Shown here: piece after piece, positions 28,250-61,156 of the stretch
Position numbering within the stretch: position 1 is the first letter of the stretch
Layout: each line of letters starts with the position of its first letter
Source: Mycolicibacterium aichiense
GTDB lineage: Bacteria > Actinomycetota > Actinomycetes > Mycobacteriales > Mycobacteriaceae
Direction: 5' to 3'
DNA length: 64,000 nucleotides
Assembly: GCF_010726245.1 (NCBI RefSeq)
Contig: NZ_AP022561.1
Location: 4,216,001-4,280,000 of the forward strand
The notes under the pieces: model-generated
The model's database searches: none
The model's input: the letters and a program-made list of their open reading frames with translations, nothing else
What the model was told of the DNA's origin: nothing
Program-made: the position numbers and the translations under genes

Positions 28250-28266
28250 ATCTAAAAGAGTAAGGT
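28250..28266. promoter_or_regulatory. 17-bp operator A (ALDH side)
   Basis: ATCTAAAAGAGTAAGGT fits the cluster consensus A[C/T]CTA-N7-[T/A]AG[G/T]T. It lies 36 bases upstream of the aldehyde dehydrogenase ATG. ACCATA immediately beside it (28245-28250) reads TATGGT on the minus strand, a -10-like box for that gene. Confidence 0.65.
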
Positions 28267-28300
28267 TTCGACCGACTGTTGACCACTATCGCTTTCACCT

Positions 28301-28318
28301 ACCTAAAACCTATAGTTT
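28301..28318. promoter_or_regulatory. 17-bp operator B (ferredoxin side)
   Basis: ACCTAAAACCTATAGTT (28301-28317) matches the same consensus. Its right arm overlaps TAGTTT (28313-28318), a -10-like box about 45 bases before the ferredoxin ATG. With operator A it would control the divergent pair jointly. Confidence 0.65.
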
Positions 28319-28362
28319 TGTCACCTGCCACCGTCCGTTCCATCAGCCAAGGAGGCATGCAC

Positions 28363-28557
28363 ATGAAGGTTCGACTCGAAAGGGCCAAGTGCGCCGGCCA
28401 TGCTCAGTGCTACGCCGTCGATCCCGACCTGTTCCCGATCGACGACGACGGATATTCCATCCTCGAACCGCACGAAGTGGACCCCGCCGACGAGCGCGTC
28501 ATCCGTGACGGCGTCGCGTCCTGCCCCGAGCTGGCGCTGATCATCGAAGACAACTGA
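28363..28557 (+). CDS. [3Fe-4S] ferredoxin (P450/Rieske type)
   Basis: This 64-residue ferredoxin carries a CxxHxxC...C(P) motif: Cys10, His13 in place of the second Cys, Cys16 and Cys54. The missing Cys means a 3Fe-4S cluster, the type that passes electrons to mycobacterial P450s. GGAGG lies 7 bases before the chosen ATG; the ATG two codons earlier is too close to it. It stands at the head of the catabolic cluster containing two P450s and a Rieske oxygenase, and is a likely electron carrier for one of them. Expression probably follows operator B. Confidence 0.93.
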
Positions 28558-28621
28558 ACGTCCCGGGCCCCGATCCGCCCGAGCGACGCCCCCTCCGAGA
28601 GATGCTGCCGCCAAGATCCCT

Positions 28622-28659
28622 GTCCCCGGCAATGGGAAACGTCCCCGGCAATGGGAAAC
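28622..28659. repeat. 19-bp tandem duplication
   Basis: GTCCCCGGCAATGGGAAAC occurs at 28622-28640 and again, identical, at 28641-28659. It lies in the gap between the ferredoxin and Rieske genes, upstream of the Rieske promoter. A recent slippage event is likely; a function is not evident. Confidence 0.9.
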
Positions 28660-28702
28660 ATGGCGGTATCGCCGAGGCGGTGCATCAACGGACAGTTCTT
28701 GA

Positions 28703-28731
28703 TTGACGTCTCATACCTATCGGCGTAAGGT
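28703..28731 (+). promoter_or_regulatory. Rieske-operon promoter with operator C
   Basis: TTGACG (28703-28708), a 17-base spacer and TAAGGT (28726-28731) form a good sigma-A-type promoter. The operator ACCTATCGGCGTAAGGT (28715-28731) covers the spacer end and the whole -10, so a bound repressor would block RNA polymerase. The surrounding 38 bases (28696-28733) are repeated with two changes upstream of the SDR gene at 35563. Confidence 0.8.
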
Positions 28732-28872
28732 TTTTTGGCATCGGCGGCGCGGGTCGCGGGTCGGTTCCGGCCACCGTAGACACGACGCGCTTCCGGGCAG
28801 GATTGCGAACCTGCAGGTTCCCAGTGACGCTCAGTGGCCGGTCAATTCACCGCTCAGTAGTAAAGGCAGATC

Positions 28873-59013: not shown

Positions 59014-59903
59014 GCCACCGCCGTGGGGAAGAACATCGTCGAGATCTGCGTGATCGCAAGGTTCGCGAACAGGATGAGAACGACATTGATCACCACGGCC
59101 GCGTTGACGGCATCCGCGACACCGCGCGGCCCGCCCTTCGCCTCCATGCCCCGCATCGAGGAGATGACGGCCACGATCGCGGCGAAAACGAGGCCCTTTC
59201 CGATCGCAAAGTAAACGTCCGTCATCTTGGCGAACGTTCCGAATGAGTTCCAGAAGCTCCCAGGCGCCACGCCGCTCACCGAGACCGAGAGCAGGAACGC
59301 AGACGCCGTTCCCGACACGATGATGACCAGGGTCAGCATGGGTGCGATCAGCAACAGCGCCAAGAAACGAGGTACCACGAGGCGACGAACCGGGTCCACA
59401 CCGAGTACTCGCATGGCGTCAAGCTCCTCGCGAATGGCCCGCGCCCCGAAGTCAGATGCGATCGCCGATGCCGCGGCACCGCCCATAAGCAGACCTGCTG
59501 TGACGGGCGCCCCCTGGCGCAGAACCCCCACTCCACTTGCCGCGCCGAGAAGCGCGGTTGCACCCACTTGCGCCACGAGTCCCGACACGACAACCGTGAC
59601 GATCCCGCCGATCGGTATTGCCATCAATACAGCCGGGGTCGCGGTGACCTTGAACAGTGCCCAGGCTTGCCAGACGAACTCACCCGCCGGCAGTCGGCCG
59701 GTGACGGTGTCCTGAATGGCATAGCGCAGAACGGAAATAGCAAGGGCAACGCCGCGACCGGTGGTCCCGGCGGCCGCCACCGGAGCCTTGGCCAGCCGTG
59801 TCGCGTTGCGCTTCGCGGAGTGGAGCGCGCCGGACTGTGGCTGATGGTGGCGAAGATTGCCAGCCCGACTGGTCGCAGCGGGTGGATCCGCGACGTTTAC
59901 CAT
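59010..59903 (-). CDS. yrbEA: YrbE-type permease, first (MlaE family)
   Basis: This 297-residue permease is the first structural gene of the mce operon. It has the conserved loop SDFGARAIREELDAMRVLGV and PVRRLVVPRFLALLLIAPML, plus five membrane segments. The chosen ATG (MVNVADPP) removes 16 Arg-rich residues of the open frame that lack a ribosome site. An N-terminal region of about 55 residues before the first membrane helix is longer than usual. About 340 bases separate it from the inferred promoter. Confidence 0.9.
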   Translation of the reverse strand: MVNVADPPAATSRAGNLRHHQPQSGALHSAKRNATRLAKAPVAAAGTTGRGVALAISVLRYAIQDTVTGRLPAGEFVWQAWALFKVTATPAVLMAIPIGGIVTVVVSGLVAQVGATALLGAASGVGVLRQGAPVTAGLLMGGAAASAIASDFGARAIREELDAMRVLGVDPVRRLVVPRFLALLLIAPMLTLVIIVSGTASAFLLSVSVSGVAPGSFWNSFGTFAKMTDVYFAIGKGLVFAAIVAVISSMRGMEAKGGPRGVADAVNAAVVINVVLILFANLAITQISTMFFPTAVA

Positions 59904-60212
59904 CCGCCCAACCCGGACTCGGCCAGGTCTGCGACTACGGCGCTGCAGCACCGTGGTCGGACGCCCGCGAGTGGACCCGACTGGAAGACCATGGACGCAC
60001 CTCGATGCTCGGTGACTGCGAGCCTCGACTGAGCCACTACTGCTCTCCCATCGTCGCTTGTGAAATCCGGCCGGTGAACCGGCTTGCGTTACTCATGTCG
60101 CTCATCGCCGTCATGGACGACTTCGGTCATGTCCGGATATGGCGCCGAAACCTGCACGCGGCCCCTCCGCTACGTTGACCTCGAGCAACTGGGTTGTGGG
60201 CGGTGACGCTAA
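59904..60212. other. Long untranslated leader of the mce operon
   Basis: Between yrbEA and the promoter-operator block lie about 300 bases without a supported gene. Plus-strand open frames run through it but continue as antisense of yrbEA and lack ribosome sites. If transcription starts near 60242, this is a long 5' leader that could carry regulation; I see no riboswitch fold by eye. Confidence 0.4.
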
Positions 60213-60277
60213 ACCTACAGCAAAGTGGTTTGGCTCACAGCGAGTAACAACCTATACCTAATAGCTTTAGTTGCCAA
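60213..60277 (-). promoter_or_regulatory. mce-operon promoter with clustered 17-bp operators
   Basis: On the minus strand TTGGCA (60277-60272), a 17-base spacer and TAGGTT (60254-60249) form a promoter pointing at yrbEA. Over it lie two interleaved operator copies, ACCTAATAGCTTTAGTT (60256-60272) and ACCTATACCTAATAGCT (60250-60266). A third, weaker copy, ACCTACAGCAAAGTGGT, lies downstream at 60213-60229. This ties the importer to the catabolic genes. Confidence 0.65.
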
Positions 60278-60534
60278 GCCCCAAATGCACCCGCGTTATT
60301 TTCGCTGCCGTTAGTCTCGGGCCCCAGGCCCTTCACACCCAACGAGCACACCCGCAAACCCGAGTGGCCCTAGGCGCACTCGCCCGGCCGAAGGCAAACG
60401 AGATATCGAAAGCCGTTCTGGACTGCAGGATTTCGAGGTCCCACCAGAAACCCCGGACGAAAGCGCTTTCAACGTCCGATGCCGGCGACCCGAATCCGTG
60501 ATTGTCCGCGAGCCGGCCGACTACGCCGGGTGCA
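60278..60534. other. Gap upstream of the mce promoter
   Basis: About 257 bases with no supported gene, repeat or clear regulatory site beyond those given. A 76-residue plus-strand frame is present but has no ribosome site. Confidence 0.4.
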
Positions 60535-60840
60535 TCACGGACATAGGTAGATGAAGGCCAGCTGCGTGAGCGCCGGTGTCACCAGGGTTGCTTCGGTCCC
60601 CACGAAGCCCGCGGCCCGCTTGTCACAGGCGTACCAACCGTCGCTCAGCAATTCACCATCGCTGCGGAAAGACACCGGGTTGTGACTGGCCGCGAACACG
60701 CGGCGAGCCTGATCGAGGAAGTTGATTTCGGCCGGCGTAGGAGGGACCAACGGATCGGCGTGCGCTGGCATGGCAGCGCTCACGCCCAGGACGAACGCCC
60801 CGATTGCCACAGCCCCCGAACAATTCCACGTGATCAACAC
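60535..60840 (-). CDS. DUF732-family secreted protein
   Basis: This 101-residue protein has a signal peptide (AVAIGAFVLGVSAAMPAHA, cleavage near residue 29). The mature domain has the DUF732 pattern FLDQARRVF with two Cys (YACDKRA, IYLCP). The start is GTG, with AAGGAG close upstream; a TTG one codon later is better spaced. It transcribes toward the mce operon but is separated by the operator block. Confidence 0.8.
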   Translation of the reverse strand: MLITWNCSGAVAIGAFVLGVSAAMPAHADPLVPPTPAEINFLDQARRVFAASHNPVSFRSDGELLSDGWYACDKRAAGFVGTEATLVTPALTQLAFIYLCP

Positions 60841-61016
60841 AATCTCCTTGGGACACTTGCGGCCTCAGTACTGATGCGCGCCCGCGAGGGTGTCTCGTAA
60901 GCAACAGGTGCCGCACTCAAGTCCACAAAATCCAGCGGTGCGCGGCTTGAGGACAGTAGCCGTCCAAGATCCTCTCGCGCAGCGAACACGAAAATCGACA
61001 AGGGCCTCTGCAAGTA

Positions 61017-61033
61017 ACCTTATGACCTTAGGA
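61017..61033. promoter_or_regulatory. Weak 17-bp operator I
   Basis: ACCTTATGACCTTAGGA has the CT[A/T]-N7-TAG spacing of the cluster operator but matches less well. It lies between the two divergent DUF732 genes, 177 bases before the minus-strand one. Confidence 0.3.
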
Positions 61034-61128
61034 TAAGTGTGTCAACCGTCACTCGCTTCGTGAGCGGCGGCTACCAAGTTCCGGCTCAGGACGCAGCAAC
61101 CAGCGCCTTCCGATCTTCAGGATTTGGA

Positions 61129-61156
61129 TTGACTACTTATCTACTTACTGTAGTTT
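61129..61156 (+). promoter_or_regulatory. DUF732 promoter with operator J, leaderless
   Basis: TTGACT (61129-61134), 16-base spacer and TAGTTT (61151-61156) end 7 bases before the ATG at 61163, indicating a leaderless mRNA. Operator ATCTACTTACTGTAGTT (61139-61155) overlies the spacer and -10. Confidence 0.7.

Follow-up and report, generated by a model that had tools for sequence, protein, structure and literature searches.

A shared palindromic operator points to a TetR-controlled regulon linking a catabolic gene cluster to Mce importers in Mycolicibacterium aichiense and other actinomycetes

To our knowledge, the cargo of most Mce importers is an open question; the KstR regulon reportedly also includes one of them, mce4. 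Here an operator was analyzed in a 64,000-nt stretch of the Mycolicibacterium aichiense genome (the window; positions 4,216,001–4,280,000 of contig NZ_AP022561.1, about 1% of the 5.93-Mb genome), where it lies before the genes of a catabolic cluster and before an mce importer operon. Judged from sequence, these sites are very probably the operators of one TetR-type repressor, TetR 25788 (25788..26441, minus strand; here perhaps together with its paralogue TetR 66251), which would block RNA polymerase until a pathway ligand releases it. Site positions are in window numbering, genes and proteins are named by their first coordinate, and G-numbers label the compared genomes. As far as the available portions of the reports describe them, the closest known regulators share parts of this arrangement. 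KstR is likewise a TetR-family repressor with a palindrome over a putative −10 and a large regulon, for cholesterol and lipid degradation, conserved across actinomycetes, but differs in its motif, TnnAACnnGTTnnA, and in its gene set (PMC1995591). KstR2, also of the TetR type, represses a catabolic cluster through a palindromic operator of motif AnCAAGnnCTTGnT (PMC3068626), and BkaR is a mycobacterial TetR protein whose palindromic operators lie in a catabolic cluster, its motif being GTTA-N-T-N4-A-N-TAAC (PMC3920632). Exact matches in the window numbered zero for TnnAACnnGTTnnA, for AnCAAGnnCTTGnT and for the BkaR motif GTTANTNNNNANTAAC, in agreement with an earlier sequence-only reading of this DNA, which had held that the motif is not that of KstR or KstR2. 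Mce3R is likewise a TetR-type repressor over an mce operon and lipid-related enzymes, but it is a double TetR protein of 406 residues with 25-bp asymmetric sites (PMC11667970), whereas TetR 25788 has 217 residues, a single TetR_N match and a symmetric operator. KstR, KstR2, BkaR and Mce3R were therefore rejected as the regulator, on motifs without a match in the window and, for Mce3R, on architecture and site symmetry. No recognised description of the operator or regulon was found in titles and abstracts; the operator may match one of the logos in which PMC4482099, in its available portion, gives the predicted motifs of 30 mycobacterial TetR proteins. As far as this literature search shows, the operator is new and the regulon is of a known general kind, TetR-controlled uptake plus catabolism, with one operator before both importer and enzyme genes.

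The pattern put forward by the sequence-only reading, AYCTA-N7-WAGKT, has nine exact matches at eight places in the window (28250, 28301, 28715, 35456, 45175, 45278, 60256 and 61139, all among the positions it had listed), against 0.07 expected, and none of 100 dinucleotide shuffles of the window reached nine matches. With up to one mismatch there were 23 matches against 2.9 expected, palindromic sites counting on both strands. The whole genome has 17 matches, nine of them inside the window, and 24 for the reversed pattern, so that the density outside the window is that of background. The supposed concentration of the motif in this cluster was thus found both against shuffled DNA, which did not approach the same density, and in the genome-wide scan with this pattern. 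Four further listed positions, 35292, 60213, 60250 and 61017, do not fit the consensus exactly but reach matrix scores of 18.1, 12.9, 13.6 and 19.9, respectively. A profile search at E up to 1 over the window and the next 20 kb, using sequence alone, returned 16 matches, all of them sites described here; genome-wide at E up to 10 only the 45175 palindrome was returned, on both strands, the profile being too short to stand out.

A stricter palindrome, WWAHCTW-N7-WAGDTWW, occurs at six places in the M. aichiense genome, five in the window and one outside it at 1858068, with one place for the reversed control. This pattern was applied to 58 further genomes, 28 carrying the Rieske oxygenase of the cluster and 30 lacking it (G255 was omitted from the 29 carriers other than M. 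aichiense). In the carriers it was found at 122 places, with 2–9 in every genome and 10 for the reversed control, whereas the non-carriers had six places in five genomes against seven for the control. Of the nine places in G289, six represent a sister motif found in a different cluster, and among the matches listed some lay away from the cluster in G018, G045, G262, G263 and G363. Chance as the origin of the motif was rejected on the window excess, this contrast between carriers and non-carriers and the conservation in other genera described below. Recent duplication of a promoter within the cluster fits one pair of sites, 28715 and 35456, which agree at 36 of 38 bases around the site and are therefore probably a duplicated promoter; as an account of the whole motif, chance or such duplication can practically be dismissed, given the numbers expected in the window and the conservation in other mycobacteria and more than ten other genera. 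The stretch TTCTTGATTGACGTCTCAT, directly 5′ of both sites (28696–28714 and 35437–35455), is identical here and largely conserved in several relatives; it may belong to the duplicated promoter or be an activator site adjoining the −35 box.

Across genomes (125 sites in relatives and 312 in all other genomes) the operator has the consensus AAACCTAanGnCntTAGGTTT with a variable central base. Its real length is about 21 bp, and the 17 bp first proposed is an underestimate because the flanking A/T runs are part of the site; the copy at 45175..45191, first described as a perfect palindrome, is symmetric at all positions except the central base. Numbering outward from the central base, C at position 6 and T at position 5 are invariant or almost so, in part because of the selection threshold, followed by A at position 4 (77%), A at position 3 (67%) and G at position 1 (65%), while no base exceeds 41% at position 2. 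A 21-bp matrix trained on the 312 sites from other genomes was applied to the window and the next 20 kb (84 kb) at a threshold score of 8 and gave 17 matches, comprising all the sites of the first reading, five more at 26459, 26557, 66196, 66959 and 67113, and nothing else; block-shuffled sequence gave a mean of 0.58 and a maximum of four. The sites at 26459, 26557, 35292, 60213, 60250, 61017, 66196, 66959 and 67113 were not among the eight seed sites.

The aldehyde dehydrogenase (ALDH) gene (26663..28249, minus strand; Pfam Aldedh) and tetR 25788 probably form one operon, whose operator at 28250..28266 abuts the listed ALDH start, so that the true start probably lies downstream of 28249. Neighbouring operators belong to the ferredoxin gene (28301..28317) and to the Rieske operon (28715..28731, spanning the −35/−10 spacer and the −10). 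Two short-chain dehydrogenase (SDR) genes are each preceded by a site, SDR 34432 at 35292..35308 and the unit of SDR 35473, a P450 and TetR 37739 at 35456..35472; the latter abuts a listed TTG start, so that the true start of SDR 35473 is probably downstream. The site at 45175 stands before P450 43878 and that at 45278..45294 before the acyl-CoA dehydrogenase gene. All of these fit both the exact pattern and the matrix except 35292, found by the matrix. Two overlapping operators at 60250..60272 (60250 and 60256, the latter fitting the pattern and both the matrix) lie about 300 bp 5′ of yrbE, a weaker one at 61017..61033 lies between the mce operon and the DUF732 gene, and one at 61139..61155, matching the exact pattern, the strict pattern and the matrix, precedes the DUF732 gene. 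Two operator-like sites absent from the first list, 26459..26475 (score 16.3, about 18 bp from the gene) and 26557..26573 (score 15.1, one pattern mismatch), are situated 5′ of tetR 25788, and those at 66196, 66959 and 67113, past the window end, adjoin a third TetR gene.

In 28 of the 30 SDR and Rieske promoters of M. aichiense and its relatives, TTGAC begins exactly 12 bases before the site and 17 bp from TAAGGT or TAAGTT, which is the right half of the site; in the ferredoxin and ALDH promoters the right half or the centre provides a −10-like hexamer. This constant spacing bears out the initial placement of the sites in promoters, on the −10 or in the −35/−10 spacer, and a site over the −35/−10 region fits repression. 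The same features could be read as an extended −10 promoter element of a shared sigma factor instead of an operator, since the right half is often −10-like (TAAGGT, TATAGT, TAGATA) and the SDR and Rieske promoters carry TTGAC 17 bp upstream. That is highly improbable, as the left half is conserved too although located in the spacer, the distance from site to −35 is not fixed across the ferredoxin, ALDH and SDR promoters (rows selected with a symmetric matrix), overlapping copies exist (60250/60256) and the sites are at background in non-carrier genomes. A generic promoter scan of 26400–45400 gave two matches against 2.2 in shuffles, that is, nothing above shuffled sequence.

Phylogenetic footprinting supports well the earlier proposal of a single regulon for uptake and degradation. 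Mycobacterial genomes were surveyed with TetR 37739 as query (198 genomes) and then with the Rieske protein and TetR 25788 (396 genomes, 30 of them Rieske carriers). The relatives' regions were scanned with a symmetric matrix from eight window sites, the site being the best match within 300 bp with a score of at least 15; counts per gene refer to regions passing identity limits, and 100 symmetrically column-permuted matrices served as control. A site preceded the orthologues of the ferredoxin gene in 27/27 regions, of ALDH 26663 in 20/21 and of SDR 35473 in 23/24, whereas the permuted palindromic matrices gave means of 0.1–0.3 and a maximum of four at the same promoters. Genes internal to operons, taken as negatives, had no site: P450 36460 0/26, thiolase 0/27, DUF35 0/27 and ligase 0/25. 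For other genes the counts were 3/3 (acyl-CoA dehydrogenase), 5/18 (ALDH 62156), 4/16 (yrbE), 1/5 (SDR 34432) and 1/14 (TetR 37739). The Rieske gene has its own site in only four of 25 mycobacterial regions (G255, G287, G335 and G373), as also in the window, because in most species it sits behind the SDR and P450 genes in one operon.

The survey was extended by a Rieske alignment search of named genomes, giving 78 loci. Seventeen of these are mycobacterial, and the other 61 come from Gordonia, Williamsia, Nocardia, Rhodococcus, Pseudonocardia, Kineosporia, Frankia, Amycolatopsis, Nocardioides, Aeromicrobium, Streptomyces, Actinomadura and others. With the window-trained matrix, a site of score 14 or more was found within 300 bp of the Rieske gene at 54 of these 61 loci, compared with a mean of 1.5 and a highest count of 21 for 60 permuted matrices. 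Sites of score 16 or more numbered 177 in 1.19 Mb from other genera against 0–3 for six permuted matrices. Sites accompany SDR 34432 (22/25), the ligase (22/41) and SDR 35473 (10/26) in these genera, with counts of 1/19 for yrbE (within 300 bp) and 0/14 for TetR 37739.

Two TetR proteins, at 37739 and 25788, had been suggested as repressor; the comparisons strongly favour TetR 25788 as the best candidate for the regulon and disfavour the other. Both match PF00440 (TetR_N), with 40.4 bits for TetR 25788 (cut-off 24) and 56.5 bits for TetR 37739. Among the 396 genomes, relatives of TetR 25788 with at least 44% identity were present in 30/30 Rieske carriers, and of 13 genomes with a match and no Rieske gene two were at 66–67% and the rest at no more than 43%. 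In 20 of 21 ALDH regions the tetR 25788 gene is located behind ALDH 26663 on the same strand, the remaining one (G255) ending at a contig edge. The recognition helix reads PSLYHH in 37 of 39 mycobacterial relatives aligned (PSLYYH in two) and APSLYHH in 30 of 43 relatives outside mycobacteria, where a TetR 25788-like protein (at least 40% identity) was found at 33 of 47 full-length loci (>20 kb). At the level of sequence, these results establish the operator, its position, its conservation and its co-occurrence with TetR 25788.

That TetR 37739 (37739..38380, plus strand; TetR_N), lying behind an operator-bearing promoter, might be the main repressor and TetR 25788 a mere neighbour is improbable. 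Its gene is inside operons bearing the site, G018 has a strong site 232 bp before it, and its helix region is weakly similar to one half of Mce3R. In the 198 genomes, however, it was present (at least 62% identity) in nine of 16 Rieske carriers, and the SDR operator was intact in six of the seven lacking it; G184 has TetR 37739 with neither the Rieske gene nor any strict-pattern site; and among the full-length loci outside mycobacteria 12/47 have it (at least 55% identity), fewer than have TetR 25788. TetR 37739 was rejected as the main repressor on these carrier and locus counts and on the persistence of the SDR operator without it.

TetR 25788 (Pfam TetR_N) resembles the tetracycline repressor in sequence and fold, with class D and class B TetR as PDB matches; its AlphaFold model (mean pLDDT 83) has tetracycline TetR as best fold match, the operator complex 1qpi being among the first. 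It aligns without gaps to class D TetR across the DNA-binding domain, falls below the tetracycline TetR family itself (PRK13756, 83.1 bits against a cut-off of 265) and has no efflux gene among its Pfam-named neighbours. The tet operator, given as CCTATCA-G-TGATAG in a primer in the available part of PMC4575469, has, like the operator of the cluster, one central base and a CCTA-type half-site; the left half of site 45278, CCTATCA, is identical to the tet half and the half-site spacing is equal. In tetracycline TetR, Arg28 and Gln38 read positions +2 and +3 of the tet operator and Tyr42 touches +4, according to the available text of PMC7102968. With residue numbers assigned from the letters of the alignment, TetR 25788 keeps Pro39, Leu41, Tyr42 and His44, has Ser for Thr40, and differs in having Pro for Arg28 and Ala for Gln38. 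The loss of the Arg28 and Gln38 contacts is in line with the looseness of the motif at position 2 and its lower conservation at position 3.

The third TetR, TetR 66251 (its TetR part at 66251–66859, within the frame L098:2230–2871), lies past the window end and is 49% identical to TetR 25788. Possibly, though this is less likely than not, the two paralogues share operators and integrate two signals through different ligands, as homodimers or as a heterodimer. Both helices read PSLYHH, the operator-like sites 66196, 66959 and 67113 surround the 66251 gene, and a copy of each type is also found in G287, G373 and G039. In G045, G132 and G164 the sole type is a third one, about 50% identical to TetR 25788, and these genomes keep the same operator, which indicates that diverged TetR relatives can read it. 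On the other side, 22 of the 30 Rieske carriers have a single match at E 1e-35. The frame at L098:3–2141, preceded by site 66196, encodes a CoA-transferase family III protein.

The importer part of the proposed regulon is more variable. In the window, the mce operon (49128..59951, minus strand) has yrbE permease genes at its head followed by mce and associated genes; G287 has the same pair of overlapping sites before yrbE and G373 one site (yrbE 85–88% identical). An operator was observed before an Mce operon in 16 of the 30 Rieske carriers, yet in 13 of these (G039, G068, G208, G335, G262, G098, G027, G037, G317, G136, G263, G099 and G176) the marked operon is only 32–38% identical to that of the window at YrbE. 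The cluster had been linked to "its" Mce importer; the operator before mce is confirmed, whereas the link is to Mce operons in general. In G027, G037, G317, G136 and G263, fetched for their strict-pattern matches, all six matches lie about 40–600 bp before a yrbE match, and of the regions fetched without a visible strict match G099 and G176 have a site before yrbE and G241 none.

In a tree of 44 YrbE proteins, 22 were marked by a site of score 14 or more within 900 bp. The closest type to that of the window was marked in 3/3, its sister in G119 not; another mycobacterial clade was marked in 12/12 and its sister group in 1/3, and a neighbouring mycobacterial clade, often beside the same cluster, in 0/7. 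Control of this unmarked clade by KstR was considered and rejected, since KstR-type sites within 400 bp of the seven yrbE genes deviate at two or three positions even at best. Outside mycobacteria the marked proportions were 2/3 in Gordonia, 0/8 in Nocardia, 1/2 in Pseudonocardia and 3/5 in Amycolatopsis, Nocardioides and Aeromicrobium; the Nocardia mce genes may follow a marked CoA ligase, since the ligase lies upstream in the same direction at four of the eight loci. Because the operator-marked Mce operons belong to different lineages, the importer seems to have been exchanged. It is somewhat favoured, on present comparisons, that the regulon is spread over actinomycetes and defined by the operator and a TetR 25788-type repressor instead of by the importer, with at least two distant Mce lineages (probably more in other genera) captured in different species, neighbouring unmarked ones left out, and two same-helix repressors in some strains; the operator would then be a tag for assigning orphan Mce importers.

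Operons of the window type in G289 (two), G322, G018, G286 and G241 had no site of score 14 or more directly before yrbE; one of those in G289 has a sister-type site of score 13. A separate catabolic cluster in G289 (contig C31:1600001–1655000) contains an mce operon 67–85% like that of the window; the operator there is of a sister type, TTATCTAC-N5-GTAGATAA, and the TetR is only 29% identical. The 61139 site of the window looks intermediate between the operator and this sister motif.

Taken with the promoter positions, we infer DNA binding and repression by TetR 25788, together with an inducer and a substrate belonging to the pathway. A repressor dimer would sit on the 21-bp palindrome AAACCTA-N7-TAGGTTT in much the way that tetracycline TetR occupies the tet operator, with only one central base between the half-sites and the strongest contacts at 4–6 bases from the centre. 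RNA polymerase would be blocked by the bound repressor, since the site extends over the −10 box and the spacer. Release may come from a hydrophobic substrate of the pathway or a CoA derivative of that substrate, whereupon the Mce importer, the P450s, the Rieske oxygenase and ferredoxin, the dehydrogenases, the CoA ligases and the Ltp2/ChsH2-like enzymes would appear jointly.

Several points weigh against this model. The outside sites were gathered by likeness to those of the window, so that the matrix trained on them is a bootstrap lacking full independence, and related genomes do not count as separate events. Seven of the 61 loci in other genera have no site by the Rieske gene, and at 14 of the 47 full-length loci no TetR 25788-like protein was found, possibly because it lies beyond the 10-kb flanks. 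A site of score 15 or more precedes tetR 25788 in only one of 25 relatives; such sites being rare, autoregulation would run via the ALDH promoter. The argument from loose bases is partial, since positions 1 and 7 are no tighter than position 2 and an Arg adjoins the lost Arg28. About 300 bp separate the yrbE start from its operator, and the stretches fetched from the remaining 14 of the 30 carriers showed no mce operon behind an operator. The model names one repressor and about ten target promoters, which can be tested with short DNA probes, and predicts that loss of one TetR gene turns on a whole uncharacterised pathway, a quick route to its substrate. An operator marking one Mce operon and one oxygenase/CoA-ligase pathway per genome pairs the two directly and testably, for several genera at the same time, and may serve to match Mce importers whose cargo is unknown to the pathway that they supply.

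The gene content of the cluster follows from Pfam and NCBIfam scans. On the plus strand, the ferredoxin (28363..28557; Pfam Fer4_15) is followed by the Rieske ring-hydroxylating oxygenase alpha subunit (28873..30051; Pfam Rieske and Ring_hydroxyl_A), which matches other oxygenases chiefly across its first 230 residues, had no match in the plasmid collection at E 1e-80, and whose homologues carry no specific function in their names (120 listed of 644). Ltp2-ChsH2 acts in side-chain cleavage in steroid catabolism. The DUF35/ChsH2-like protein (30526..31707, plus; zf-ChsH2 and OB_ChsH2_C, with matches in the C-terminal part and an uncertain start) has PDB matches 9myr_B and 6ok1_B, the latter being the ChsH2 chain of 6ok1, and the thiolase-like, Ltp2-like protein (31704..32867, plus; Thiolase_C_1) has 6ok1_A, a lipid-transfer protein, as best PDB match, which suggests a side-chain cleavage step resembling that of Ltp2-ChsH2. 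Two overlapping frames, 30056–30955 and 30526–31707, lie between the Rieske and thiolase genes, the first with a GNAT match just under the cut-off; the listed DUF35 start is probably too early, because the frame 30056–30955 has a similar frame in G287.

The remaining genes were assigned by the Pfam/NCBIfam scan unless stated otherwise. They comprise an AMP-forming acyl-CoA ligase (32897..34411, plus), the short-chain dehydrogenases SDR 34432 (34432..35223, minus) and SDR 35473 (35473..36429, plus), and a cytochrome P450 (36460..37686, plus); the cluster P450 matches several P450 families with similar scores. The minus-strand unit of P450 43878 (43878..45131) continues with a molybdopterin oxidoreductase (41588..43813) and a 4Fe-4S/flavin oxidoreductase (39931..41607) and ends with an acyl-CoA ligase (38411..40231). 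An acyl-CoA dehydrogenase and an enoyl-CoA hydratase (45320..47326, plus), an MlaF-like ATPase (47632, minus) and the DUF732 protein (61163..61573, plus) complete the set. Of six mce operon genes scanned, 59010 contains MlaE, 52981 and 57039 contain MlaD, and 49128, 50155 and 51334 had no Pfam match; the remaining genes of that operon were named by position and by matches in the mce operons of relatives. Outside the operator-bearing region, a BTAD/NB-ARC (SARP-like) regulator at 15284–18151 lies between a second Rieske oxygenase (11632–12954) and a P450 (23888–25117).

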